Source: Paludibacteraceae bacterium
GTDB taxonomy: Bacteria; Bacteroidota; Bacteroidia; Bacteroidales; Paludibacteraceae
Length of the DNA stretch: 64,000 nt
Assembly: GCA_017509715.1 (NCBI GenBank)
Contig: JAFWOU010000019.1
Coordinates: 1 to 64,000 of the forward strand
Direction of reading: 5' to 3'
The position numbers and the translations under genes were made by a program. Of the stretch, positions 5,104 to 55,755 are shown in pieces. The notes beneath the pieces were generated by a model. The model saw only the letters and a program-made list of their open reading frames with translations. It had not been told where the DNA came from and did no database searches. The stretch's first letter is position 1. Every line of letters begins with the position of its first letter.

Positions 5104-7728
5104 CTACATTTGACTTAATATCTCTAAAAATCTGGCCTTAGTATATGCCCCATCTACAACACGTTTATCATACACCAAGAAATATCCGTATTTATCACGT
5201 CCACAGCAAGATGCCCATAAGTTTCCTAATTTAATTTTCAGTTCGGCATCCAAATGCTCGCCCTTAGTCTCCAACAAGACTATCTTTCCGCTTTTCGTCT
5301 TGATAATAAAGTCGGGATAATGGTTAATAAAGCCATTGATATAGAAGCCTCTCTTTTCCACATCACGCGTCCACCATTCAATATTAGGCATATTTGCCAC
5401 ATCGTTAATCACCTCTAACTCAAAATCATTTACTGCTTCCTCATTTGTGTACAGACTGCGAGGTATAGCACTACCCTTCTCTTTTACTGCGATAGTCTGC
5501 GGGAATTTGTATATGGGTTTGACAAAGAGTTTACCGGCATCTAACCAATCGCAAAACGTCTCATACATATGCTTCTGCTCAAGAGTAACTATTTTCTGCT
5601 TTATCTCATCCGAATATTCATTCAAATGTGCAACAAAATCGTTCAGTTGCTCTTCGTTCATCGGCCTTAGAATACGCTCTACGTAGGCCATAATATCGGG
5701 CTCCGCCAGAGGAGACATTTTTCCCATAGCGCGTGCTACGACAGAAGCACATTTATGTATCTTCTGTTCGGTATTTTCAGACGAACGTAAGTAATTCAGG
5801 ATATACTCACGTTGCTGAGGATTGTCTATTTTAAAATAGCGAGGCGTATGATCGTCCGATTCGGTGTCTATATCTACACGGTACATGCTAGTAGGAGCTG
5901 CAACAAAACTAATATTTGCATCCTGATGTTCAAGTTTAAAGTTATCCAACAAATGCTCCTTTTTAAGCAACACCTCTTGGGCTTCAAAAATATTCATTTG
6001 CAATGTTAATTTCGAATAGAACATCGGGAGTTCTACCATCTTTGCACTATCCGCAAAAGCAGATTTGATTTGACCGTGCTTCATATCTTTCTTAAGTTCG
6101 TTAGGTACATTTGTCTCTCCTGTTTGCTCTTGGTGCTCTATTTGCTGTTGCAATGCTGCCGCTTCTTGTGCGCCATTTTGAAGAATAGATAATACATCCT
6201 CATTAGCAGAAGGAGCGTCTAAGGGCTCATCCGGATTAAACGTAATAGCAGTCTTGTCTATTTCATCCGAAGATTTGCTTACGGATTGTGGTTTCGGGGT
6301 CTCAGTAAACAATTCTGGACCAACCATAAAGTTGTCATCCGGATTATACTGTTGCTCTTGTGCTGCCTCGTCAATGGAACGGTAGTCTTCCTCTGAGAAG
6401 CCCGCACGATTAAGACCCTTAACTACATTATTCAGCGTTTCTTGGAAACGTGCGGAAGCTGTGAGTACATAACTCATATTAAGCGCCGCGTCAGGATTTT
6501 GGCGAGTATTCGGCAAACGCAGCACACGTCCGACTATCTGCTCTACATCGACAGCCGAACTACGATCGGCAAGAGAAGCGAGAATATATGCGAAGGGACA
6601 ATCCCATCCCTCTTTGAGAGCATTGATGGTGATAATATAGCGCACAGGACAATCCTCCGCCATCAGGTCTATATCCTTTATCTCGTTTATCTCAGCGGTC
6701 TTTATTTTAATTTGTTCCTCTGGGATACGCAAGTCTAGCAAGCTCTGCTTAATCTTATCAAATGTTGCACGGTCTGCATCCCCGTTTTTAGATTCCGCTT
6801 GGAATAATACAATAGGACGGATATATCTGTCGGTATATTTATGAGCAGTACGCTCCAACTCACGCTGCAAATGTAATGCAGAGTCGATGACTTGCTCTTT
6901 CTTATTGTGATTATATACTATAACCGGCAATTTGACCATATTGTTTTTCTTGAGTTCGAGCGCGTCCGTGAAGCATAGAATATTACTATTCTTACGAGGT
7001 GTAGCAGTGAGGTCAAGTACAAAACTCGGGTGCATGTCTTTAATCATATCCTCACTCAACTTACTCGTGGCGTTGTGGCTTTCGTCAACTATAACAACTG
7101 GATGCAGGGCTTGGATGACGGACATCAGCTGAACCTCATCGGTATTGCTAGCATTTTCATGCAACAAAGGCAAGAACGACTGCAAATATCCGTTGTCCAA
7201 ATATACACGGCGGTTGTCCTTGTTTGCAGTACGGAACGAGTCATAACTCATCACTAAGATACACAAGTTCTCATTGACGGTCGCCAATGAAAAGCCCTGC
7301 CCCATCAGAGCCTGCTCTTTGTTGAACACCTCTACGCGGTTTTGAAAATCCGTATCGATACGTTGGCGGTATGGATGATTTTTGTTTCGCAAGTTGCGCA
7401 AAGTCTGCTCCAGAATGGCGTTGGAAGGTACGAGCCACACTACAAAGCGTCTCGATAACAGACTGAAAGCGTCAAAGATAGTCTTCAGCGCAGCGGACGC
7501 AATAAACGTTTTACCACCACCGGTAGGCACCTTAATACACAAATGCGGAGCGCCCGGTACATTGTCCTTATACGGTTCAATTGGCATTCCGGGAAACGGA
7601 TTGAAAGGCGGATTATTTGTCTGCCAGAACTTGTTGTAAGCATCACCGATGGAGTGAGTCTCTTGGGATATTTCCAAGAAACGCTCCAATTCGTTCAAGA
7701 TCTTTTGTTGATAGTTCTTCAGTTCCAT
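5104..7728 (-). CDS. Type III restriction enzyme, Res subunit (helicase-nuclease)
   Basis: 874 residues, slightly short for Res (often 900-1000). An SF2 helicase core is visible: Walker A PTGGGKT at 68-74, a Walker B variant V-D-E-S-H near 212-216, the S-A-T-like LTATPRKNS after it, and motif VI EQIVGRVLRLP. The C-terminus has a PD-(D/E)xK nuclease signature, HYPDFIIKTKSGKIVLLETKGEH near 800-820 (D, then E-x-K). With Mod it would cleave DNA after ATP-driven communication between two inversely oriented sites. It begins 1 nt after the mod stop, in the normal mod-res order. No frameshift or missing motif is visible, so it should be active. Confidence 0.92.
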   Translation of the reverse strand: MELKNYQQKILNELERFLEISQETHSIGDAYNKFWQTNNPPFNPFPGMPIEPYKDNVPGAPHLCIKVPTGGGKTFIASAALKTIFDAFSLLSRRFVVWLVPSNAILEQTLRNLRNKNHPYRQRIDTDFQNRVEVFNKEQALMGQGFSLATVNENLCILVMSYDSFRTANKDNRRVYLDNGYLQSFLPLLHENASNTDEVQLMSVIQALHPVVIVDESHNATSKLSEDMIKDMHPSFVLDLTATPRKNSNILCFTDALELKKNNMVKLPVIVYNHNKKEQVIDSALHLQRELERTAHKYTDRYIRPIVLFQAESKNGDADRATFDKIKQSLLDLRIPEEQIKIKTAEINEIKDIDLMAEDCPVRYIITINALKEGWDCPFAYILASLADRSSAVDVEQIVGRVLRLPNTRQNPDAALNMSYVLTASARFQETLNNVVKGLNRAGFSEEDYRSIDEAAQEQQYNPDDNFMVGPELFTETPKPQSVSKSSDEIDKTAITFNPDEPLDAPSANEDVLSILQNGAQEAAALQQQIEHQEQTGETNVPNELKKDMKHGQIKSAFADSAKMVELPMFYSKLTLQMNIFEAQEVLLKKEHLLDNFKLEHQDANISFVAAPTSMYRVDIDTESDDHTPRYFKIDNPQQREYILNYLRSSENTEQKIHKCASVVARAMGKMSPLAEPDIMAYVERILRPMNEEQLNDFVAHLNEYSDEIKQKIVTLEQKHMYETFCDWLDAGKLFVKPIYKFPQTIAVKEKGSAIPRSLYTNEEAVNDFELEVINDVANMPNIEWWTRDVEKRGFYINGFINHYPDFIIKTKSGKIVLLETKGEHLDAELKIKLGNLWASCCGRDKYGYFLVYDKRVVDGAYTKARFLEILSQM

Positions 7729-44912: not shown

Positions 44913-46403
44913 TCAATACGAGAGGGCGAAGACCACGCGGCCGGCCGACGGCTTGCCGGTGACCATACACGTACCGGGTTCGCTATGATGGCCCGGCAGG
45001 TCGGCCAACGGGATGCAGCGGATCGTAGCCTTGGTGTCGGCCTTGATCTGCTCCTCGGTCTCGGGCGTACCATCCCAGTGGGCCAGGATGAAACCGCCCT
45101 TCTTCACCTCCTCCTTGAACTCGTCGTAGGAGTTAACCTCGCGCGTATTGGCGATGCGGAAGTCGAGGGCTTTCTGGTAGATATTCTGCTGGATATCCTC
45201 GAGCATCGTTTGGATGCGGGCTACGATACCCTCCAGGCTGACGGTCTCTTTCTCCATCGTGTCGCGACGTGCGATCTCGATGGTGCCGTTCTCCAGGTCG
45301 CGTCCACCCATAGCCAGACGTACCGGCACGCCCTTCAGCTCGTAGTCGGCGAACTTATAGCCCGGCGTGTACTTGTCGTCGGTATCTACCTTGACGCGGA
45401 TGCCGAGTGCCTTGAGTTCGTCGGCAATCGGATTGAGCTTCTCCATCAGGGCGGCCAACTGATCCTCCTTCTTATAGATCGGCACGATGACTACCTGGGT
45501 CGGCGCCAGGTTCGGCGGCAGGACGAGTCCGTTGTCGTCAGAGTGGGTCATGATGAGCGCACCCATCAGTCGGGTACTTACGCCCCACGAGGTAGCCCAT
45601 ACGTACTCCAGTTTGTTCTCCTTGCTCAGGAACTTGACGTCAAACGACTTGGCGAAGTTCTGACCCAGGAAGTGGCTCGTACCGGCCTGCAGGGCCTTGC
45701 CGTCCTGCATCATGGCCTCGATACAGTAGGTGTTCAGCGCACCCGCGAAGCGCTCGTTGGGCGACTTCACGCCCTTCACTACGGGGATAGCCATCACCTT
45801 CTCGGCAAAGTCGGCATATACGTCCAGCATCTGGCGTGCATAGTCCTCGGCCTCCTCCTTGGTGGCATGGGCGGTGTGGCCCTCCTGCCAAAGGAACTCG
45901 GCCGTACGCAGGAACAGACGCGTACGCATCTCCCAGCGCATCACGTTGCACCACTGATTGCACAGTATCGGCAGGTCGCGATACGACGAGATCCAGTTCT
46001 TGTAGGTGGACCAGATGATGGTCTCCGAGGTCGGACGGATGATCAGTTCTTCCTCCAGTTTGGCATTCTCGTCCACTACCACGCCACGGCCGTTCGGGTC
46101 GTTCTTCAGGCGGTGGTGAGTCACCACGGCGCACTCCTTGGCAAAGCCCTCCACATGCTCGGCCTCACGGCTCAGGAACGATTTCGGGATCAGTAGCGGG
46201 AAATAGGCGTTCTTCACACCCTGCTGCTTGAATCGGCGATCCAGCTCTTGCTGAATCGTCTCCCATATTGCATAGCCATAAGGCTTGATCACCATACATC
46301 CGCGTACGGCACTCTGCTCGGCCAGGTCGGCCTTGACCACCAACTCGTTATACCACTTGGAATAGTCCTCCGAACGAGGGGTCAGTTTCTGAAAATTTGC
46401 CAT
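44913..46403 (-). CDS. proS: Prolyl-tRNA synthetase (archaeal/eukaryotic type)
   Basis: 496 residues, without the editing insertion of the larger bacterial type. Class II motifs: motif 2 [26 protein letters not shown], motif 3 near [30 protein letters not shown], and the anticodon-binding domain [31 protein letters not shown]. The C-terminal part binds zinc in related enzymes ([21 protein letters not shown]). It attaches proline to tRNA-Pro, one of which is 2.5 kb away. Promoter at 46445-46475. Confidence 0.96.
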
Positions 46404-46444
46404 ATATTATTCTGTATTCTGTATTCTCTTTTCAAAATCGGCTG

Positions 46445-46475
46445 CAAAGGTACGAAAAAAAAATCACATGTGCAA
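46445..46475 (-). promoter_or_regulatory. Promoter of proS
   Basis: Minus strand TTTGCACATGTG -33 region (TTG at 46473-46475), 20-nt spacer, TACCTTTG (46445-46452). Confidence 0.88.
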
Positions 46476-46591
46476 ATAAATTTGCATATATCAAACTTTG
46501 GTCGCGAAAAATGCAATTTTTCTTTTAATTTCGCGAGCTACGCATGTATATTGGTCGCGAAAAGCGCATATTTTCTTTAATTTCGCGAGCA

Positions 46592-46971
46592 ACATTGCCT
46601 CCGGCAGGTACCTACCTTCGGTGCAGACCGGCCAAGCCGGTGTCTTTTGACAGATAGCAGTTGTGGCTGGCGCGGTTCTTTGTTCTGTGCTTCGGCCGTC
46701 CGGCCCGAGATTTTCTTTACTTGGAGCCCCCGCGAAGTGCTAACGTAGTGATACTTCGTGGGGAAAGGAGGAACAGCGGCAAGTTAAACGCGCCTAGCGC
46801 GTTTCGGTCTTGCAAGCTTGTTCCGACGCCGTTTCCTGCTCCGCGAGTAAGCGCGGAGGATTTCCATAGCTGTTTACTCCTCGCCGCTATCTCGGCGAGC
46901 ATATTGTCCTTTGTCTATTATCCGGCAATTCTATTGCCGTCTCATTGTGCACTTTTTTCGCATATTTGCGG
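46592..46971. repeat. Hairpin-mosaic non-coding element, copy A (380 bp)
   Basis: Starts with TTGCCTCCGGC and ends with CATATTTGCGGCAA; both ends recur at 48655-48890. Inside are small perfect hairpins: ACCGGC-CAA-GCCGGT, AACGCGC-CTA-GCGCGTT, CTCCGCG-n6-CGCGGAG, CTCGCCG-n6-CGGCGAG and CGGCAAT-TCT-ATTGCCG. It carries about 140 bp absent from copy C. No gene is seen in the 46476-47073 gap. Confidence 0.8.
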
Positions 46972-47004
46972 CAAGCAAGCGAAAATTTTTGTACAGAGTA
47001 TTCA

Positions 47005-47090
47005 AATTTGTGGATTTTTAGCATATTTAATAAAATAAATTTGTGGATTTTTAGCACTTTTTGCAAAATAAATTTGTGGAAGTCAAAAAA
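47005..47090. repeat. Triplicated promoter-proximal segment
   Basis: AAATTTGTGGA occurs three times (near 47006, 47037 and 47071), the first two followed by TTTTTAGCA. Each contains the TTTG of a possible -33 box; the last one is the -33 of the next promoter. Confidence 0.75.
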
Positions 47091-47104
47091 AAGCAGTACC
47101 TTTG
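47074..47104 (+). promoter_or_regulatory. Promoter of the DUF4143 ATPase
   Basis: TTG (47074-47076), 20-nt spacer, TACCTTTG (47097-47104) followed by CAG. Confidence 0.85.
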
Positions 47105-47131
47105 CAGCGGATTTTAAAATGATTTAGTGCT

Positions 47132-48463
47132 ATGATATTCAAACGTAAATTGTATGACACGATGCTTCGTTGGAAAAACGAACGTCAAGGAAAGACAGCC
47201 TTGATGATAAAAGGGGCACGCCGTGTCGGAAAATCGACATTAGTAGAAGAGTTCGCCAAAAAAGAATACAAATCCTATATCCTTATAGATTTCTCACGGA
47301 CAGACAAAGAATTGGAAGCATTTTTTGATAATCTGCTTGACTTGGATTATTTCTTTGTTCGATTGCAAAACAAGTTCGGCGTATCACTCTCTCCGCGTGA
47401 ATCTGTAATCGTGTTTGACGAAGTGCAAAATTTCCCACCTGCACGTCAAGCCATTAAACATCTGGTTAAAGATGGTCGCTATGATTATATTGAGACGGGG
47501 TCGCTCATAAGCATCAAGAAAAACATACAGGGTATCATTATTCCGAGTGAAGAACATTCGGAAACACTCTATCCTATGGATTTGGAGGAGTTTTATTGGG
47601 CTATAGGCAACGAGACGACACCTATACAACTGCGTCAAACGTATGAAATGCACCGTCCGATGGGGGATTCAGTGCATCGCCAGTGGATGCGTGATCTACG
47701 TTTGTATATGCTTGTCGGTGGAATGCCTCAAGCGGTTGATGCATATTTACAATACAAAGATATGCGCGCGGTAGACGATGTGAAACGTGAAATATTGGAA
47801 CTATACTATAATGATTTCCGCAAGATAGATTCTACAGGTAGAGCATCTCGTCTGTTTTCAGCTATCCCGAGTCAACTCAATAGTAACGCTTCTCGGTATC
47901 AGGTAAGCGGCGTTATTGAAAATCAGACCGCAGAACGAGTTGCTGAAGTGATTGCGGATATGGAAGATAGCCAAACTATCTTGATGGCATACCATGTAAA
48001 TGATCCCGAAGTGGGAATGGGGCAATTCAAAGATTTTTCGCGTTATAAAATGTTTATGGCAGATACCGGTTTATTTGTGACGCTTGCGTTCTGGGATAAA
48101 TCGTATACGGAAAACATCATTTACAATAAACTGCTCTCTGATAAGTTGGAAGCAAATTTAGGATATGTGTACGAAAACTTGATTGCTCAAATGCTCAAGA
48201 CAGCAGGGAATGAGTTATATTACTATACTTTCCCGACCGGCAACGGAAACAAAAATTATGAGATCGACTTTCTTCTTTCGCGAGCCAACAAACTTGTACC
48301 TATAGAAGTGAAGTCGTCTGGTTACAAGACACATAAGTCGCTTGATGAGTTCTGCACTAAGTACTCATCACGCGTAGGAGACCGTATATTGCTCTATACC
48401 AAGGATTATCAAAAGGATGGTGCAATAAAGTGCTTACCCGTTTATTTCACTCCGTTTTTGTAA
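47132..48463 (+). CDS. AAA ATPase with DUF4143 C-terminal domain
   Basis: 443 residues. Walker A GARRVGKSTLVEEF (about 26-39) and Walker B VIVFDEVQNF (about 92-101) define the AAA_14 domain. The C-terminal DUF4143 part ends with a PD-(D/E)xK-like motif, YEIDFLLSRANKLVPIEVKSSG (about 386-407). Such proteins are very common, mobile and variable in Bacteroidales; function unknown. It has its own promoter and a terminator at 48492-48526, and sits alone between copies of a hairpin-rich non-coding element. Confidence 0.9.
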   Translation: MIFKRKLYDTMLRWKNERQGKTALMIKGARRVGKSTLVEEFAKKEYKSYILIDFSRTDKELEAFFDNLLDLDYFFVRLQNKFGVSLSPRESVIVFDEVQNFPPARQAIKHLVKDGRYDYIETGSLISIKKNIQGIIIPSEEHSETLYPMDLEEFYWAIGNETTPIQLRQTYEMHRPMGDSVHRQWMRDLRLYMLVGGMPQAVDAYLQYKDMRAVDDVKREILELYYNDFRKIDSTGRASRLFSAIPSQLNSNASRYQVSGVIENQTAERVAEVIADMEDSQTILMAYHVNDPEVGMGQFKDFSRYKMFMADTGLFVTLAFWDKSYTENIIYNKLLSDKLEANLGYVYENLIAQMLKTAGNELYYYTFPTGNGNKNYEIDFLLSRANKLVPIEVKSSGYKTHKSLDEFCTKYSSRVGDRILLYTKDYQKDGAIKCLPVYFTPFL

Positions 48464-48491
48464 GACCTCTCCATTTTCCTCTTTGCTCCGT

Positions 48492-48526
48492 GCGCAAGTC
48501 GTCAGGCTTGCGCTTCTCTTTTTTCC
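48492..48526 (+). terminator. Terminator of the DUF4143 ATPase
   Basis: 7-bp stem GCGCAAG/CTTGCGC with an 8-nt loop, then a T-rich run. Confidence 0.7.
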
Positions 48527-48544
48527 CTTTCCGCGAGATTCAAT

Positions 48545-48652
48545 CCGATTGTCCTTTGTTAATTAGCCCGGCATTTGATGCTGGTTCTTAATACGTCCCC
48601 TTTAAGGAGCATGAGCTCCGTTTCATTTTGCACTTTTGTCGTATATTTGCGG
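48545..48652. repeat. Hairpin-mosaic element, copy B (partial)
   Basis: Shares with copies A and C the words ATTGTCCTTTGT, a CCGGCA...TGCYGG hairpin, and the end TTTGCACTTTTGTCG-TATATTTGCGGCAA. It also has GGAGC-ATGA-GCTCC after ACGTCCCC, a pair found again near 54510-54541. Confidence 0.75.
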
Positions 48653-48654
48653 CA

Positions 48655-48890
48655 ACTTGCCTCCGGCGGGTACCTACCTTCGGTGCAAACCGGCCAAGCC
48701 GGTGTTTTTAGGACCTGTAGCGGTGTGTGACCGGCGCGGTTCTTTGTTCTGTGCTTCGGCCGTTAGACCGGAGCTTCTCCGTGGCTGTTTACTTCTCGCC
48801 GCTATTTCGGCGAGCATATTGTCCTTTGTCTATTACCCGGCAATTTCATTGCCGTTTCATTTTGCATTTTTGTCGCATATTTGCGGCAAT
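48655..48890. repeat. Hairpin-mosaic element, copy C
   Basis: Same ends and order of hairpins as copy A without the ~140-bp middle. Loop bases differ from copy A while the stems (for example CGGCAAT/ATTGCCG and CTCGCCG/CGGCGAG) are kept. Confidence 0.8.
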
Positions 48891-48923
48891 TATCCATTTT
48901 TCTCTTATATTTTGCAAATCTAT

Positions 48924-48954
48924 TTGCGTATCTCAGAAAAAAATGGTATCTTTG
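48924..48954 (+). promoter_or_regulatory. Promoter of the 317-aa gene
   Basis: TTTGCGTATCTC -33 region (TTG at 48924-48926), 20-nt spacer, TATCTTTG (48947-48954) followed by CAC. Confidence 0.88.
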
Positions 48955-48984
48955 CACGCAAAACGTGCAAACAACAAAGAAACT

Positions 48985-49938
48985 ATGCAAAGCATCAAAA
49001 AATCAATAAAACTCTTTATAGACGAGAAGTACCGCGCTTTGCCTTTCGGTACGGTGTACTTCGTGGAAGGAACAGCTTCTGCAAAAATCAATGATTATGT
49101 GCTTTCTCAAATCGAATCCATTGAAGAGCGCATTAATCAAGATACATCTAACTGGGTGACATGCAAAATAGTATATCTCAAAGCGGAAAATCCTTTCTTC
49201 CCAGCAGAAAAGAAAGCAACTCTTTATAGCGCAATGATGCCTGTAGAGGATATTTTTCTTGCTACAAATGATAGTGATTTCTTTGTCGCTCGCCTTGACA
49301 TTACATCCACAGATCTGATTGAAACTGCGGTGTCTGAGTATTTCGATACATTGCAGGAGATGTTTGATGAAATATTAGACACTGGGAAGTACAAAGAATA
49401 TCATTTCCGCAAGACAATTCTTTCTCCTTATGAAGACAGCGGTATTCGTTTCTCGATTACCCGCAGTCAGGATGATGAGGCTATGTTCTCCATCACCCCA
49501 AAGCCGTTCCCATTCACAGAATTAAGTCGATTGGTAATTACACCTCTTACCTATACTGTGTTGCTTCCTGACTATGATCGCGAGATACATTTTACAGCTC
49601 AAGTGAAAGCTTTGTACTGCCTTTTTCTAAACCATCCGGAAGGCATACGAATGAAGGAGATTTCGGATTATAAAGAGGAATACATCCATCTTTATTTCTG
49701 TCTTACAAATAGATCGGACACGGATAAACTCCGTGAGTCTGTAAACAGGTTATTGGATGTTTGCAATCCGAATGCCTTGAATGTAAAGAAATCCCAATGT
49801 AATTTGGCTATCCGCAGGGCTATTCCTAACGATGATCTCCGAAAGCATTACGAAATAGAAGTCAATTATGGTCTTCCTCACAAAATCAATTTGGATCGTT
49901 CTTTAATCACCATGCCGGACATCCTCAAAGCCAAATAA
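48985..49938 (+). CDS. Hypothetical protein, 317 aa, with C-terminal helical (wHTH-like) region
   Basis: Start at ATG 48985, set by the promoter 31 bp upstream; a longer frame from 48727 crosses the promoter and the repeat and is rejected. The N-terminal ~190 residues are alpha/beta with acidic stretches; no motif recognised. The C-terminal region (ALYCLFLNHPEGIRMKEISDYKEEYIHLYFCL...KLRESVNRLLD) resembles a segment found in many Bacteroidales proteins, H-P-E-G-I-x-x-K-E-x-x-D-Y, possibly a winged helix, but I cannot assign a function. It is a single-gene unit at the edge of the island. Confidence 0.7.
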   Translation: MQSIKKSIKLFIDEKYRALPFGTVYFVEGTASAKINDYVLSQIESIEERINQDTSNWVTCKIVYLKAENPFFPAEKKATLYSAMMPVEDIFLATNDSDFFVARLDITSTDLIETAVSEYFDTLQEMFDEILDTGKYKEYHFRKTILSPYEDSGIRFSITRSQDDEAMFSITPKPFPFTELSRLVITPLTYTVLLPDYDREIHFTAQVKALYCLFLNHPEGIRMKEISDYKEEYIHLYFCLTNRSDTDKLRESVNRLLDVCNPNALNVKKSQCNLAIRRAIPNDDLRKHYEIEVNYGLPHKINLDRSLITMPDILKAK

Positions 49939-49950
49939 CGTTACAAACTT
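49937..49950. promoter_or_regulatory. Half-palindrome operator-like site
   Basis: TAACGTTACAAACT (49936-49950 region) abuts the -33 box of the next promoter. It equals the core and right half of the perfect 20-bp palindrome at 53086-53105, which abuts the next promoter likewise. Confidence 0.6.
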
Positions 49951-49951
49951 T

Positions 49952-49981
49952 TTGCTGTTTCAACAAAAAGCAGTAATTTTG
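49952..49981 (+). promoter_or_regulatory. Promoter of the Mrr-like nuclease operon
   Basis: TTG (49952-49954), 19-nt spacer, TAATTTTG (49974-49981) followed by CAG. Confidence 0.8.
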
Positions 49982-50011
49982 CAGTGTTAATTTAATCTAT
50001 AATAATAGCCG

Positions 50012-51655
50012 ATGAACATAACTGGAAATAAAGACGATAATTGGGGATGCATATCAGGTTATGGATTTGCAGCTGCATGTCTTGTGTCTATAGCCTTATT
50101 TATTTCAGCCGCGGAAGGGAACAATATTGATAATTGGAAATGGATATGTACAATCATCTTTTTCTTTTTTGTTGTTATATGCTGGATTATCACAAAAAAC
50201 AGAATTGAGGATAAGAAAAATGACGAGATTCAAAAATTAAGGAAAGAAAAGGAGGAACTAAACAATACGGTAACAAAGAATAATCAGCTAATTGCTATTC
50301 TGCGCTCTCGAACGCCTTTCTCTACGGTGGCCAAGATGTATGCTGATGCCCATGCTGCGATATTTGATGAAGACATAAGGTTAATGATACGTAGAAATAA
50401 TAGTTATAATACTATCCAACTTAATAAACAACGTAAAGAAGAATACATCGAACTTGCGCAGAAATATCAATCTCTAGAATGGAGGTATTCTGCTTTGATA
50501 AACCAGTACTTCAAAGAAGTAAGATCGCAGTTAAATACAGAAGAATTGTTCTTAAACTTTCTTCGAACCACCTCAACTAAACAATACATAGAACTCATAA
50601 ATGAAAAAATCAAGCAATATAACATTGAAAAAAAAGATGCCGTCAATAGATATAATCAACAACGTAATTTATTATTTTCTCAAAGTCCATTCAAGGACTC
50701 AGCAGAACTCATAGCAAAACTTGATGGGTTGGATTACGATGCGGCAGCATATTTCTTACGATATAAATCACCTCCTGCTCCAGTTTCTGCTGATAGAATT
50801 GAAAAAGAATATAAACAAGAATATCTAAAATGGCGCACATTATACGAAGAATTATACACTAAATACCAATTCCTATGTACTACTTTCCCTGATTTAAAGT
50901 TATATATTGACGACGAAAAGAGTTTGCTGAAACTAGCAGAAATTAAGTCTTTTGACGATTTTCAAGATGAAACAGATAGGGTCGCCAATTATCTTTCTCA
51001 AGAAGAATGGCAAAAATTAACGCCAATTCAAAGAAACCAGTTAGCACTTGACCGATATATTCAAAGAGATAAAGATAACCTTACAATTGGTTTAGAGTAC
51101 GAAATGTACGCTGAGTATGTGCTTCAATCAAAGGGATTTAAAACTATCCCTCATGGTATTTTAAATGGTGTAAATGATTTGGGTCGTGATATTATAGCAT
51201 GGAAAGATGATATGTGTGAACCATTATTCTCGGATGTTCGCGATATATTTTCAGATTCATATGTGTACATTATACAATGCAAATTACGTTCACAGGAAAC
51301 AGTCATTCATGAGAATGTAATTTGTCAAGTGTATGGATCTGCAATAGAATATGAATTAGAACATCCAGACAAACGAGCTATTCCGACAATTTGTACTAAT
51401 GTTCCACTCTCTGAAACTGCACAGAAATTTGCAGAAAGATTGAAGGTGTTTGTGCTTACAATGCAAATGGGAGAGTTTCCTAGAATTAAATGTAATATAA
51501 ACAATGGAGAAAAGATATATCATTTACCCTTTGATCAACAATACTGGCGAACTCAAATAAACAAGGTAGGAGAATGTTATGCATGGACTATTCAGGAAGC
51601 AGAAAATAAAGGCTTCCGTAGAGCTATGCGTCATAACCCATATGTAAATAATTAA
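50012..51655 (+). CDS. Membrane-anchored coiled-coil protein with Mrr-like nuclease domain
   Basis: 547 residues. Two membrane helices (about 14-34 and 42-63) are followed by a coiled coil (about 65-105, KKNDEIQKLRKEKEELNNTVTKNNQL), a long helical region (110-350), and a restriction-endonuclease-like domain (~355-495): IGLEYEMYAEYVLQSKGF (helix), NDLGRDIIAWKDD (Asp) and YVYIIQCKLRS (Q-x-K), the Mrr PD-(D/E)xK order. The visible Lys and Asp argue that it is active. A membrane-anchored nuclease fits a phage-defence effector, with the helical region as sensor. It is first in an operon with an ArdC-like metallopeptidase and a nucleotidase. Confidence 0.72.
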   Translation: MNITGNKDDNWGCISGYGFAAACLVSIALFISAAEGNNIDNWKWICTIIFFFFVVICWIITKNRIEDKKNDEIQKLRKEKEELNNTVTKNNQLIAILRSRTPFSTVAKMYADAHAAIFDEDIRLMIRRNNSYNTIQLNKQRKEEYIELAQKYQSLEWRYSALINQYFKEVRSQLNTEELFLNFLRTTSTKQYIELINEKIKQYNIEKKDAVNRYNQQRNLLFSQSPFKDSAELIAKLDGLDYDAAAYFLRYKSPPAPVSADRIEKEYKQEYLKWRTLYEELYTKYQFLCTTFPDLKLYIDDEKSLLKLAEIKSFDDFQDETDRVANYLSQEEWQKLTPIQRNQLALDRYIQRDKDNLTIGLEYEMYAEYVLQSKGFKTIPHGILNGVNDLGRDIIAWKDDMCEPLFSDVRDIFSDSYVYIIQCKLRSQETVIHENVICQVYGSAIEYELEHPDKRAIPTICTNVPLSETAQKFAERLKVFVLTMQMGEFPRIKCNINNGEKIYHLPFDQQYWRTQINKVGECYAWTIQEAENKGFRRAMRHNPYVNN

Positions 51656-51661
51656 CAAACG

Positions 51662-52645
51662 ATGACAATAGAAGAAACCAAAAGTAAGTTAGATATACTT
51701 TTCTCAGAAGTAAAAGCATATCGTAAGAGCAAACATTTTGCGGAGTTATTAGGGTTTTGCGCAAAATTCAAAACATTGGCACCATATAATGCCATGTTGG
51801 TTCATTTACAGAGACCGCACGCACGTTTTGTATTAACTCCAAGCGAATGGAAAAAATATAATCGCAAAGTCCGCGCTCACGCAAGACCTCTTATTATTCT
51901 TGTTCCTTTCGGACCAGTTGACTTCGTGTTCGAAATACAAGACACTTATACTCCAAGACAAGCTCCGTATGAATATGGCGAAACGGAAATTATTGATGAG
52001 GTAGAAAAGCCATTTAGAGTTTCCGGAACAGGAAATTCATCCATGCTCAATAGGCTCGTATATTTTATGCAATATCACGGTATTGCTTATAATCCTAATT
52101 GGGAAGTGGGCTCCGATTGCGGAGCTCAAATAGAAGATATTGCAGAGTCTGATGAATATAGACAACTCAACATACATATTAACAAGAATATTGATGTGGT
52201 ATATAGGCCCAAGTTTCTTGTTAGTACAAATAAAAACGCGGATGATTGCGAAAAGATAGCAAGTATTGCTCACGAACTAGGACACTTGTTTTGCTATCAT
52301 TTACCTTGTCCCAAAGGCTGGGGAAATGCTTGGGAACATAGAAACTTAGACGAAAATGTGAGAGAATTCGAAGCCGAAGCAGTAGCACGAATGGTGTGCG
52401 ACAGATTGGGGATTGGCACTCACTCCGAACGATATCTTGCTCCGTATTTGTTTAGACATAATGAAATTCCACGCGAGGTTAGTGTAGAAAACATTTGTTT
52501 CGCAGCCAATAAAATCTTAACTATGTGCTTTGATGTACAGAAGATGACGTATCGGAATGGATTGTTATATAAGAATGATGAGAAATTCAAAGAACTGGTA
52601 AAACGCATTAATTCTGCTAATAAACAAAATAATGAGAATGAATAA
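51662..52645 (+). CDS. ArdC/ImmA-like zinc metallopeptidase
   Basis: 327 residues. The zinc motif HELGH is at about 204-208 (SIAHELGHLFCYHL), and a third ligand is likely the glutamate in REFEAEAVARMVCDRLGI (about 237-243), the ImmA/IrrE (DUF955) layout. The N-terminal ~110 residues look ArdC-N-like: LAPYNAMLVHLQRPHARFVLTPSEWKKYNRKVRAHARPLIILVP, a single-stranded-DNA-binding fold in ArdC antirestriction proteins. Linked ImmA peptidases usually cleave a repressor; here the likely target or partner is the Mrr-like protein 6 nt upstream. The operon arrangement is striking, but its role is inferred. Confidence 0.78.
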   Translation: MTIEETKSKLDILFSEVKAYRKSKHFAELLGFCAKFKTLAPYNAMLVHLQRPHARFVLTPSEWKKYNRKVRAHARPLIILVPFGPVDFVFEIQDTYTPRQAPYEYGETEIIDEVEKPFRVSGTGNSSMLNRLVYFMQYHGIAYNPNWEVGSDCGAQIEDIAESDEYRQLNIHINKNIDVVYRPKFLVSTNKNADDCEKIASIAHELGHLFCYHLPCPKGWGNAWEHRNLDENVREFEAEAVARMVCDRLGIGTHSERYLAPYLFRHNEIPREVSVENICFAANKILTMCFDVQKMTYRNGLLYKNDEKFKELVKRINSANKQNNENE

Positions 52646-53087
52646 GAAAATAGTATATGTGGACATGGATAATGTGCTGGTGGATTTCCAGAGTGGCATT
52701 GATGCTATGCAGGATGTGATTACTTCTGAGTATGACGGTCGGATCGATGAAGTGCCTCATATCTTTGCGCACATGAAACCGCTTCCCGGAGCCGTTGAAG
52801 CATACCGTGCATTATGCGAAAAATACGATTGTTACATCCTTAGCACCTCTCCTTGGAGCAACCCGACTGCGGCAAGTGACAAGTTTGCTTGGGTCAAGAA
52901 GTACCTTGGTGATGTAGCTCACAAGCGTCTTATTCTATCACATCATAAGAACCTAAATAGCGGTGATTATCTCATTGACGATCGTCCAGAGAAAAATGGT
53001 GCAGGTCTTTTTGAAGGTGAAGTGATTGCCTTTGGTAGTGAGCAATTTCCGAACTGGGATTCCGTTTTATCCTATCTATTGAAATAG
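52632..53087 (+). CDS. 5'(3')-deoxyribonucleotidase-like HAD phosphatase
   Basis: 151 residues (MRMNKKIVYVDMDNVLVDF...). HAD motif I is D-M-D-N-V (the nucleophile and acid Asp), motif II CYILSTSPWSNPTAASDK, and motif III/IV YLIDDRPEKNGAGLF. This matches NT5C/YorS-type nucleotidases, which remove phosphate from dNMPs. An internal ATG at 52638 (MNKK) avoids most of the 14-nt overlap with the peptidase gene; the first is kept because overlaps are common here. Depletion of nucleotides is a known anti-phage strategy, so it may add to the operon's defence role; it may also be metabolic. Confidence 0.8.
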   Translation: MRMNKKIVYVDMDNVLVDFQSGIDAMQDVITSEYDGRIDEVPHIFAHMKPLPGAVEAYRALCEKYDCYILSTSPWSNPTAASDKFAWVKKYLGDVAHKRLILSHHKNLNSGDYLIDDRPEKNGAGLFEGEVIAFGSEQFPNWDSVLSYLLK

Positions 53088-53105
53088 TTTGTAACGTTAC
53101 AAACT
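53086..53105. promoter_or_regulatory. Perfect 20-bp palindrome (operator-like)
   Basis: AGTTTGTAACGTTACAAACT reads the same on both strands. It overlaps the nucleotidase stop codon and ends next to the -33 region of the following promoter. A shorter copy sits in the same place at 49937-49950. Confidence 0.75.
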
Positions 53106-53137
53106 TTAGGAGTTATCAAAAATATGTAGTACCTTTG
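53106..53137 (+). promoter_or_regulatory. Promoter of the secreted protein/phosphatase operon
   Basis: TACCTTTG at 53130-53137 followed by CAG. The -33 is TTA rather than TTG, as expected for a regulated promoter with an adjoining operator. Confidence 0.65.
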
Positions 53138-53184
53138 CAGCAGATTTAAAAATCCTGCTGCTTTTATTATAAAATTATATAGAT

Positions 53185-53655
53185 ATGAGACACCTTAAAT
53201 TTGCTGCGGTAGTTATACTGCTAATTATTGGAACAAGCATTGGTTGCGCGGAAGAGTATTCCCAACGTTGGAATGCTTATTTGCAGCGCACAGAGTATTA
53301 TGATTCCTTTGGTAGACTTGTTGCATACGCGCAATATAATCAAGTCACCAAGAAACTTGAATACTACGATGCGTCGGGCCGATTCCTAAAATCAGAAGAG
53401 CAGAACCCTGTTAATGGAAACATCGAATCGCGGAACACGTGGACAGGTAAAATGAACTATCAGCGCACCCAAGACCCACTGACAGAGAATCGGGAGAATA
53501 TCACGGATGAGTTTGGACGATTGATTGGTTATCGCGTTTATATGGAATCATTGAAGAAATGGGTTGTATACAACAATCAACATCAACAGATTGGTTACTA
53601 TTCATGGAATGTTGTAACGAGATCTTGGGAGTATCATAACGGACCTGCTTTCTAA
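53185..53655 (+). CDS. Secreted protein with short aromatic repeats, 156 aa
   Basis: Residues 1-20 (MRHLKFAAVVILLIIGTSIGC) are a signal sequence ending in S-I-G-C, so either a lipoprotein or a type I cleavage near C-A-E-E. The mature part has repeats of an aromatic beta hairpin with G-R/G-Y, for example RTEYYDSFGRLVAYAQYNQVTKKLEYYDASGRFL and ITDEFGRLIGYRVY. It resembles the repeats of the large secreted protein at 12537-15788. No enzyme motif. It is upstream of, and 2 bp from, the phosphatase-like gene. Confidence 0.65.
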   Translation: MRHLKFAAVVILLIIGTSIGCAEEYSQRWNAYLQRTEYYDSFGRLVAYAQYNQVTKKLEYYDASGRFLKSEEQNPVNGNIESRNTWTGKMNYQRTQDPLTENRENITDEFGRLIGYRVYMESLKKWVVYNNQHQQIGYYSWNVVTRSWEYHNGPAF

Positions 53656-53657
53656 TT

Positions 53658-54293
53658 ATGAGGACATACTCTTTCGCAAAAATAACGGTTCGTCCGTTCT
53701 TAAAATTATCGGACGTGAATAACCCTTACATCTTCGGTGAGACGAAGCACGTCATTAACATGTGTGACTATCGTGAGCCGGAAGTTATAGACTTGATTTA
53801 TTCAAAGGGTGGTACGTTCGATTGGTTTCCGACGGAAGAACAGCCGATGGATGTAAATGCTATTCTCCAAGCTGTTGCCAAACTTGCGGAGTATGACAAA
53901 GATAGTACACCCATCATCGTGCATTGCATGGGCGGTAATAATCGGTCTCGCACGGTTGTCGAAGCATATCACTTTGCCAAGTTTGGTACACATATTGAAG
54001 ACATGTACAGGGGCTATAAGAACCATCTGCACTACAATTGTGAAAGTGGATATTTACCGCCATTAAAAGAGATGGAGCGCTTGCTGTCATCAGATATAGA
54101 GACTATTTTACATGCACACAAAACGCTTGTGGAAGTCTCGATACATCAAGGCGATTTACACATGTATGGATCTGCTCCCAAAGAGTACGTGGATAAAATG
54201 CAGGAAATAGTAAAAAACGATCCTCCTGAAAAGTGGACGGGTAAAGATTTGGAATTACTGGCTACAGCTATCAAGACATTAGAAACAATGTAA
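53658..54293 (+). CDS. Dual-specificity/tyrosine phosphatase-like protein
   Basis: 211 residues. The signature H-C-x5-R is present as HCMGGNNRSR (about residues 92-101), giving a cysteine-based phosphatase pocket; the preceding strand PIIVHC and the following helix (RTVVEAYHFAKFG) fit the fold. The general acid region may be DYREPEVIDLIYSKGGTFDWFP. Substrate unknown: protein phosphotyrosine, phosphoinositide or nucleotide are possible. It has no signal peptide. A GCCCC/GGGGC hairpin follows at 54304-54338. Confidence 0.7.
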   Translation: MRTYSFAKITVRPFLKLSDVNNPYIFGETKHVINMCDYREPEVIDLIYSKGGTFDWFPTEEQPMDVNAILQAVAKLAEYDKDSTPIIVHCMGGNNRSRTVVEAYHFAKFGTHIEDMYRGYKNHLHYNCESGYLPPLKEMERLLSSDIETILHAHKTLVEVSIHQGDLHMYGSAPKEYVDKMQEIVKNDPPEKWTGKDLELLATAIKTLETM

Positions 54294-55755
54294 CAATAAT
54301 ATAGCCCCTCCTCAGCGAGATTGATTCGCTGTTGGGGCACACAAAGAGATGTCTGCGGCTTTGTTGGCGCAAGGTTAAGACCTACTCCACGTAGCGATCT
54401 CTTTGCCTCCGGTTAGTAGGGTATTGAGAAGAATTAGGCTTCTTAAGAAGTGACTACTAATCGGAGGATTTCTTTCTTCGTATTCCTTGGGATAGAATCC
54501 CGCTATAGATTACGTCCCCGACAAGGAGCTTTAGCTCCGATCATCCTTCAGCATGTATCTTTTTCTCATATCATCCACTCTTAGCATGTATTTTTTTTGA
54601 GTCATCAATCCCTTGCATGCCTTTAAAAAAATGCACTGAGAAAAGTGAGAAATTTAGGAAAATATCGTGCCCTTGTGGCTAAGAAATAATCGTTCCGAAG
54701 AATAAGAATTCTCACTTTTCTCACAATTCTCATGCAATTTTTGCATTGCACTATTTGCACTTTCTGCACTTTCACCATCAATAGTGCAAATAGTGCAGAA
54801 AGTGCAGAGTAAATTTTGCATGACCAAGTTGACCATCTTGACCAACTTCTATTTGAATTGTTTGACTTACTTGGTCAAGTTTGTCATGTGACTTTTCCTA
54901 AATAGCGTTGACAGTTTTTAATAATTTTAACTAAAAGACTTGACACTCTCCTGGAAAATGTTTACACTTTCCTAAAAAAGTTGACATCGTCCTAAATTTG
55001 TTTACATTCCGAACTATCCGATTCTTAAGATTTTAGCTCACTAAGGGGCAAGTCATGGGCAAGTAAGGGTTGAGTCATGGTTTTCCCATGGTTTTTAAAT
55101 GCCTATTTTCCCCTCCCATAATATACTATTATTAAGATTTGCCCCATGCTTATGTAAAGACTTTCCCATGAGTTAGCCCTGTTAATCCTAGACTTTTCCC
55201 GTAATGTCACCCTATGAAGAGGCTAACCAAAGGCATCCCACGAACAACGTTTGTTGGGTCGAATGATATTCGACGTATATATTTTTTGTGCACTCTGGCA
55301 CTCTCTGGGGCAGCCCAGCAGTCTAGCTGTCTTAGTCGTGTCTATGCCCTGTGTGTCGTTAGTTATAAGTTAGTTATTCGTTCGTTATTCCTTGGTTATT
55401 GATATACCAACAGGCTAACCATAGCCCCTTCATAGTCCCTCCCAACGACAATCTCTAAGCGTTATTTATTTTTGTCGTGACGGTTTGACGGTTTGGCGGT
55501 TTTCAAAATTTTCCGTGTCGCTGTGTCGCTCTTGTTTTTTTGCATGAGATTAATGAGACTTTGAGACTTTCTGGCGCAATATTCTGAATACCATTTGTTT
55601 ATAAAGTCTCACCAAAGTCTCAAAGTTCCACCAAGTAATAACGACAATAGCGACAAAGCTACATCCCGATTTAGCAAAAACGCTCAATGAATATAGTTTT
55701 TTCTTCCAAATGTTGGTAAAAAAGCATAGATTTGGACGAAAAATGCAAGAAAAAT
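54294..55755. other. 1.5-kb gene-poor, repeat-rich region
   Basis: No convincing gene. It contains: a GCCCC/GGGGC hairpin (54304-54338); a long CCTCCG-TTAGTAG/CTACTAA-CGGAGG hairpin (54406-54467) with an inner CTTCTTAAGAAG; a GGAGC-TTTA-GCTCC hairpin (about 54519-54532); a cluster of GCACT/AGTGC words (about 54752-54807); three 9-bp units TGACCAAGT-type (54821-54847); ~20-bp iteron-like repeats (54940-55020); and later short repeats (GAGACTTT, GTTTGACG, TGTCGC). It may be a decayed element or an origin-like region. Confidence 0.7.
54940..55020. repeat. Four ~20-bp iteron-like repeats
   Basis: TTGACA or TTTACA start at 54940, 54961, 54981 and 55001, i.e. 21, 20 and 20 bp apart, mostly followed by TCCT and an A-run. 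A possible earlier unit starts at 54908. Confidence 0.65.

Follow-up and report, generated by a model that had tools for sequence, protein, structure and literature searches.

The hairpin-rich intergenic arrays described here are very probably BIME-like mosaics of REP-type palindromes, belonging to a RAYT/REPtron-type system of this ruminant-gut Bacteroidales genus. They lie in a stretch of 64,000 nucleotides, hereafter the window (positions 1 to 64,000 of contig JAFWOU010000019.1 from a Paludibacteraceae bacterium). The search for a linked transposase that an earlier note on this sequence had proposed led to a family of REP-associated tyrosine transposases (RAYTs), tied to one of the unit types of which the arrays are built. 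The same note had suggested a new REP/MITE-like family. The REP part of that suggestion stands, given dispersed units and RAYT genes that are flanked by units or carry them, and the MITE part is not supported, no bounding inverted repeats having been found.

The three arrays, A (46592..46974), B (48545..48655) and C (48655..48890), are related mosaics, as had been claimed. A and C are common at both ends, and B has the linker CCTTTGT-nnATTA and the end CGyATATTTGCGGCAA in common with them. All units in the three arrays are on the minus strand in the same orientation, with their tails toward lower coordinates. In plus-strand order A reads U8 U7b U6 U5 U4 U3 U2b U1, B comprises U2, U9 and U1, and C comprises U8, U7b, U3, U2b and U1. 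A and C align over their whole length apart from the extra block reported in A, which is ~145 nt long and holds three hairpins, a long imperfect one, AAACGCGC-cta-GCGCGTTT and CTCCGCG-agtaag-CGCGGAG. On the minus strand the latter two are U5 (46786..46804; AAACGCGC-tag-GCGCGTTT) and U4 (46839..46858; CTCCGCG-cttact-CGCGGAG then cagGAAACGgc), neither of which is in C. U3 is found in A at 46880..46899 (CTCGCCG-agatag-CGGCGAG then gaGTAAACAG) and in C at 48795..48814 (CTCGCCG-aaatag-CGGCGAG), and U8, with the hairpin ACCGGC-ttg-GCCGGT, at 46627..46641 in A, where ctgcACCGAAGG follows it, and at 48689..48703 in C. The B/C array begins earlier than had been described, at 48482, with an additional hairpin (GCGCAAG-tcgtcagg-CTTGCGC); this is U10 (48482..48516, minus strand, GCGCAAG-cctgacga-CTTGCGC + CACGGAG), just past the stop codon of an ATPase gene.

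The unit type that ties the arrays to the RAYT has a 6-7 bp stem ending in AT, a 3-nt loop and then (g)(c/t)AATnRACAAAG, a tail that can be summarised as (C)TAATnRACAAAG. It is present on the minus strand in A at 46907..46941 (CGGCAAT-aga-ATTGCCG + gataatagACAAAGGA), in B at 48552..48586 ((C)CAGCAT-caa-ATGCCGG + gctaattaACAAAGGA, with one stem mismatch) and in C at 48822..48856 (CGGCAAT-gaa-ATTGCCG + ggtaatagACAAAGGA), and an isolated copy lies at 55242..55276 (GTCGAAT-atc-ATTCGAC + ccaacaaACGTTG). The related word that had been noticed near 54510-54541 proved to be a genuine variant of a unit of B (TTACGTCCCCgacAAGGAGCTTTAGCTCCG), an isolated U9 at 54514..54541 that reads directly as GGAGCtaaaGCTCCttgtcGGGGACGTAA on the minus strand.

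Perfect hairpins with a stem of at least 6 bp are about ten times as frequent in the arrays as in shuffled sequence, which bears out the chains of hairpins. Dinucleotide-preserving shuffles gave an expectation of 0.48 for A, where 5 are observed, and of 0.37 for 48480-48890, where there are 4. The A and B/C arrays rank with the 400-nt stretches of the window that are richest in perfect hairpins, and each array folds better than every shuffle (z-scores of -4.3 for A and -3.6 for C).

The arrays do flank the DUF4143 ATPase gene (47132-48463), yet the same units adjoin many unrelated genes elsewhere. Two 33-nt tandem repeats (AAATTTGTGGATTTTTAGCA..., 47004-47069) are found directly upstream of the ATPase start region. 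The ATPase, which corresponds to PADLOC candidate PDC-S01 (E 1.8e-97), is part of an island between proS and rpsP (47132-54293). The island also holds two unassigned ORFs, the second with a C-terminal half that looks restriction-endonuclease-like by eye, together with a putative metallopeptidase (HELGH motif), an NT5C nucleotidase and a dual-specificity-type phosphatase. A different dispersed repeat family occupies 54600-55250, in the 1.3 kb gap before rpsP; it has 27 matches in the genome, including one of 121 nt at 100% identity (C22:90786) and one just downstream of the RAYT gene on contig C28.

The units of A, B and C recur ~30-60 times in the 2.38 Mb genome. The genome-wide search that had been proposed was run with a 349-nt query spanning B and C and gave ~30 partial matches, and the units, which might have been confined to a single locus, are dispersed genome-wide; counts beyond the loci examined individually come from genome searches alone. 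Against 60 relatives the same query gave few and weak matches, all within the genus. The units fall into about a dozen types, all of them hairpins with a short tail, and their order changes between arrays. With 14 units, C18:82765-83707 is the largest array, and it includes the U4-U5-U6-U7 block of A. Some units stand alone and others in tandem, and they are also found within transposase genes and next to unrelated ones. Contigs C6, C8, C9, C13 and C20 have ends in or close to units, so that the assembly was probably interrupted by the arrays. The stems of the key unit within one genome include CCGGCAT, CGGCAAT, TCCGGAT, CCCGAAT and others, with pairing that is almost always perfect, and there is a second unit form, CTCGGG-cctgacgt-CCCGAG + CACnnnACAAAG. 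The canonical GT[AG]G is absent from the 5' foot of the hairpin, where CTTyGTnnATT(A/G) is found.

Small ORFs of ~64-67 aa (KDGYYFR..GKQIVQRCP) were seen among the hairpin units (L045:1991-2185, L046:10813-11016 and L053:4535-4729), and the 3' end of their gene resembles U3. Those on C14 and C18 were considered as the mobile agent and rejected, with no significant Pfam family and a weak match to Mig-14 as the sole hit.

The genome has three RAYT genes, none of them inside the window, at C14:2745-3737, C31:146514-147551 and C28:250437-251399 (loci L045, L094 and L061, respectively). All three have a hairpin inside the coding sequence and at least one is flanked by hairpins. Their proteins are each predicted to end in a DprA-like domain. 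The C14 ORF carries the Y1/HUH transposase motifs YHVTMTV, MPDHIHF, GFWQ and YIRMNP; it is preceded by a hairpin-tail and followed by a tail-hairpin, such that the tails face inwards, and contains an in-frame double-tailed copy. This arrangement differs from A, B and C, which are chains of one orientation. The C28 gene has an in-frame TAG at about the tenth codon, and from its sequence this copy is possibly decayed. Many members of the RAYT family are flanked by units, among them C14, L079, L084, L085, L114 and L142, with tandem unit arrays on both sides of the gene in L079, L084 and L085. A repeated word, TTGTGTATGTCATTCAAAAAAGTAA, adjoins the RAYT genes in L071, where it is in tandem, and L061, and may be a further RAYT-associated repeat. 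A separate, better-conserved Y1/RAYT-like gene lies beside a tilS-like gene (L060:1144-1896, at 29.3 kb of C14), and no hairpin units were seen around it.

Homologues of the RAYT were found in 42 of the 61 sampled genomes of the genus, in 3 of 148 other genomes sampled from the order and in none of 147 others from the phylum. The named records with close homologues are mostly from ruminant-gut Bacteroidales, many of them labelled Paludibacteraceae. The proteins score 21.4 against the NCBIfam model REP_Tyr_transpos (NF047646; curated cut-off 80 bits) and 19.5-20.7 against Pfam PF01797 (curated cut-off 23 bits). They were recognised through the HUH motif and the fold; Pfam and NCBIfam alone would have missed them. 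In our alignments (A1 and A3) the motifs read MPDH(L/I/V)H and Y(I/V)xMNP.

The RAYT genes themselves connect transposase and unit. A hairpin is located between the HUH and Y motifs in 31 of 37 RAYTs in one set and 66 of 71 in another, the two sets overlapping in part. In the larger set there are 87 hairpins in 18.4 kb of linker vs 18 in the remaining 50.9 kb of the same ORFs, some genes also having one at the N- or C-terminus. More distant RAYT homologues outside the genus are without the unit. That nearly all members of one transposase family have a hairpin at a single site is left unexplained if the hairpins are instead RNA elements (terminators in 3'-UTRs, or signals for processing and stability) which only recombination has spread and which RAYT genes simply acquired. 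Such a reading would suit the intergenic position of the units and U10, which directly follows the ATPase stop codon and is itself followed by a T-rich stretch. A, however, is situated between two divergent genes, proS and the ATPase gene, and Rfam gave no family at threshold for the 46-56 kb stretch, with weak matches to microRNA families below it. We consider RNA elements of this kind unlikely.

The in-gene hairpin might also reflect conservation of the peptide, PNxIR, which recurs in one frame, its likeness to the extragenic units being secondary. Most copies, however, are read in another frame: 52 encode an ELNS-type peptide (ELNS, EFNS, ESDS) vs 27 of the PNxIR type. Being read in two frames, the hairpin is kept as DNA and not as peptide. 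The linker it encodes is disordered in the structure model, and the stems vary with compensation, compensatory changes being seen in 5 of 7 stem pairs in hairpins that had been preselected for perfect stems, which inflates the pairing. Peptide conservation is thus a very unlikely origin. The tails of the in-gene hairpins resemble those flanking the same locus (8.5 of 14 positions) more than those of other loci (6.8 of 14), and none of 10,000 permutations gave a likeness as high.

To compare the arrays with the RAYT genes, a covariance model was trained on 63 RAYT in-gene hairpins with the own genome excluded. This model, built solely from in-gene hairpins of other genomes, recovers A, B and C. 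There are five matches in the window, the unit in B (20.6 bits, E 3.7e-4), the isolated unit at 55242-55276 (18.1 bits), the units in A (13.0 bits) and C (12.8 bits), each at an E of about 0.1 individually, and a weak one at 6250. In the own genome there are 61 matches at E<=1, the best at the three RAYT genes and the next at the dispersed units. Across the genus the median number of units is 8 in genomes with a close RAYT vs 2 in those without (p=4e-6), with a partial correlation on genome size of 0.48, for a count that takes in the copies inside the genes and that itself varies with genome size.

The earlier note had also raised recombination sites bounding cassette genes, i.e. structured, attC-like sites around genes such as the DUF4143 ATPase. 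The hairpins on either side of the ATPase gene would be in keeping with this, as would the small genes between units at C18:82.8 kb, whereas units are also found alone, in tandem, within RAYT genes or next to unrelated genes and follow many orders, a layout that speaks against cassettes and renders the idea highly improbable. Hardly any weight can be given to a MITE, which would derive from a DDE insertion sequence, be non-autonomous and carry terminal inverted repeats, for although A and C have both ends in common, a repeat scan of 46400-49100 found no inverted-repeat pair bounding either, the units are single or tandem in different orders and the linked transposase is of the HUH/Y1 type.

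To look at the RAYT protein an AlphaFold2 model was made for the homologue L114 (pLDDT 83.8). Its N-terminal HUH domain matches ISDra2 TnpA and the E. coli RAYT-REP complex (4er8). The last 153 residues were modelled separately (pLDDT 94), and the 14 best PDB matches to this model are all of the DprA family (query TM 0.50-0.62), among them ShosA and the DprA proteins of H. pylori, S. pneumoniae and R. palustris. DprA is a DNA-uptake protein. An hhalign comparison of the C-terminal domain with a Bacteroidales DprA profile was non-significant (E 0.35), with a matching register, and sequence profiles gave no confirmation of the likeness; the domain is thus predicted to be DprA-like by fold alone. 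No RAYT with a DprA domain was found named in the literature searched.

In the RAYT/REP system that we favour, the RAYT, through its HUH motif and tyrosine, would recognise the hairpin, folded in single-stranded DNA, together with its tail, the replication fork being the probable place and CTTTGTnnATTA-hairpin and CTTTGTnnATTAG-hairpin candidate substrates. It would cut and rejoin the hairpin, moving units to other single-stranded sites, and the DprA-like domain may hold the single strand or pass it on. Tandem gain, nested insertion and duplication or deletion of blocks would then give mosaics such as A and C. That the RAYT binds, cuts and mobilises the units we infer from its family. Exact empty sites were looked for in relatives, upstream of proS, and none was found, the region being too divergent. 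In five close relatives with the neighbour of proS retained, the stretch of 1.5 kb upstream of proS contains no DUF4143 gene, and inspection by eye showed no array in it. By resemblance, the remaining types of hairpin in A, B and C probably represent additional unit families of this sort, for which other RAYT copies may be responsible; the weakest step is to place U1, U3, U5, U6 and U8, which have no demonstrated RAYT, in the same system. We also put forward, as a tentative and rather doubtful proposal, that this lineage is an HUH transposase fused to a DprA-like ssDNA-binding domain, whose own REP serves as a functional in-gene exemplar (an autoregulatory or template site) and keeps transposase and genome-wide hairpins matched even as compensatory changes diversify the stems.

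The system bears on the way in which REPs spread and on how a RAYT remains matched to its own REPs. Since the RAYT gene of many species here holds a REP whose tail tracks those of neighbouring REPs, the genus offers dozens of natural transposase-substrate pairs, from which rules of recognition could be read and tested. A DprA-like domain, if true, would suggest a link between REP processing and ssDNA handling or RecA loading, and would widen the domain range of HUH enzymes. For annotators the system accounts for one class of intergenic repeats that break assemblies of rumen Bacteroidales.

Among known systems, the arrays resemble the BIME/REPIN arrays of E. coli and Pseudomonas, which are RAYT-linked clusters or mosaics of palindromes (Bertels and Rainey 2011, PMC3116915), in having clustered or mosaic short palindromes beside many genes and a RAYT link. 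They differ in being mostly chains of one orientation, with several unrelated hairpin families and variable stems, regular inverted pairs not being the rule. The CGTC-tagged REPs, hairpins with a conserved tag that also occur in Bacteroidetes, have intragenic copies and no dedicated transposase was found for them (Di Nocera et al. 2013, PMC3733652). The units here are likewise tagged hairpins of Bacteroidetes with intragenic copies, but they are linked to a family of RAYTs and carry ACrAAG/ACGTTG as the tag. The closest comparison is with the RAYT subclasses of Quentin et al. (2018, PMC6006769). Subclass 2.4 (Bertels group 4), which has Bacteroidetes among its hosts, is an HUH/Y transposase with a gene flanked by REPs, some of them double-foot, and with REPs in frame between the HuH and Y motifs; it has a GT[AG]G foot and the motifs NH[IFV]H and YIxNNP. 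The in-gene REP is therefore not new. The transposase type, the flanking REPs and the in-frame REP between the two motifs are found here too, but with a CTTyGTnnATT(A/G) foot, DH(I/L/V)H and Y(I/V)xMNP motifs and a predicted DprA-like C-terminus. Subclass 2.6 (Bertels group 5), from Bacteroidetes, has atypical REPs without GTAG, the motifs NH[LIV]H and YIH[QN]NP and a length of ~179 aa. Our system resembles it in host and in its REP-like structures without GTAG, and departs from it in that the RAYTs are without those motifs and are not short proteins; in-gene REPs and a DprA-like domain, the latter predicted here, are not described for subclass 2.6 in the part of the survey consulted. What is new is the combination of a foot without GTAG, stems that vary between species, mosaics of several families and a DprA-like domain predicted at the C-terminus of the RAYT. 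With its DH..H and Y..MNP motifs and its stem-variable units set in mosaics, the system belongs on the features tested to neither subclass 2.4 nor 2.6, and is a variant rather than a member.
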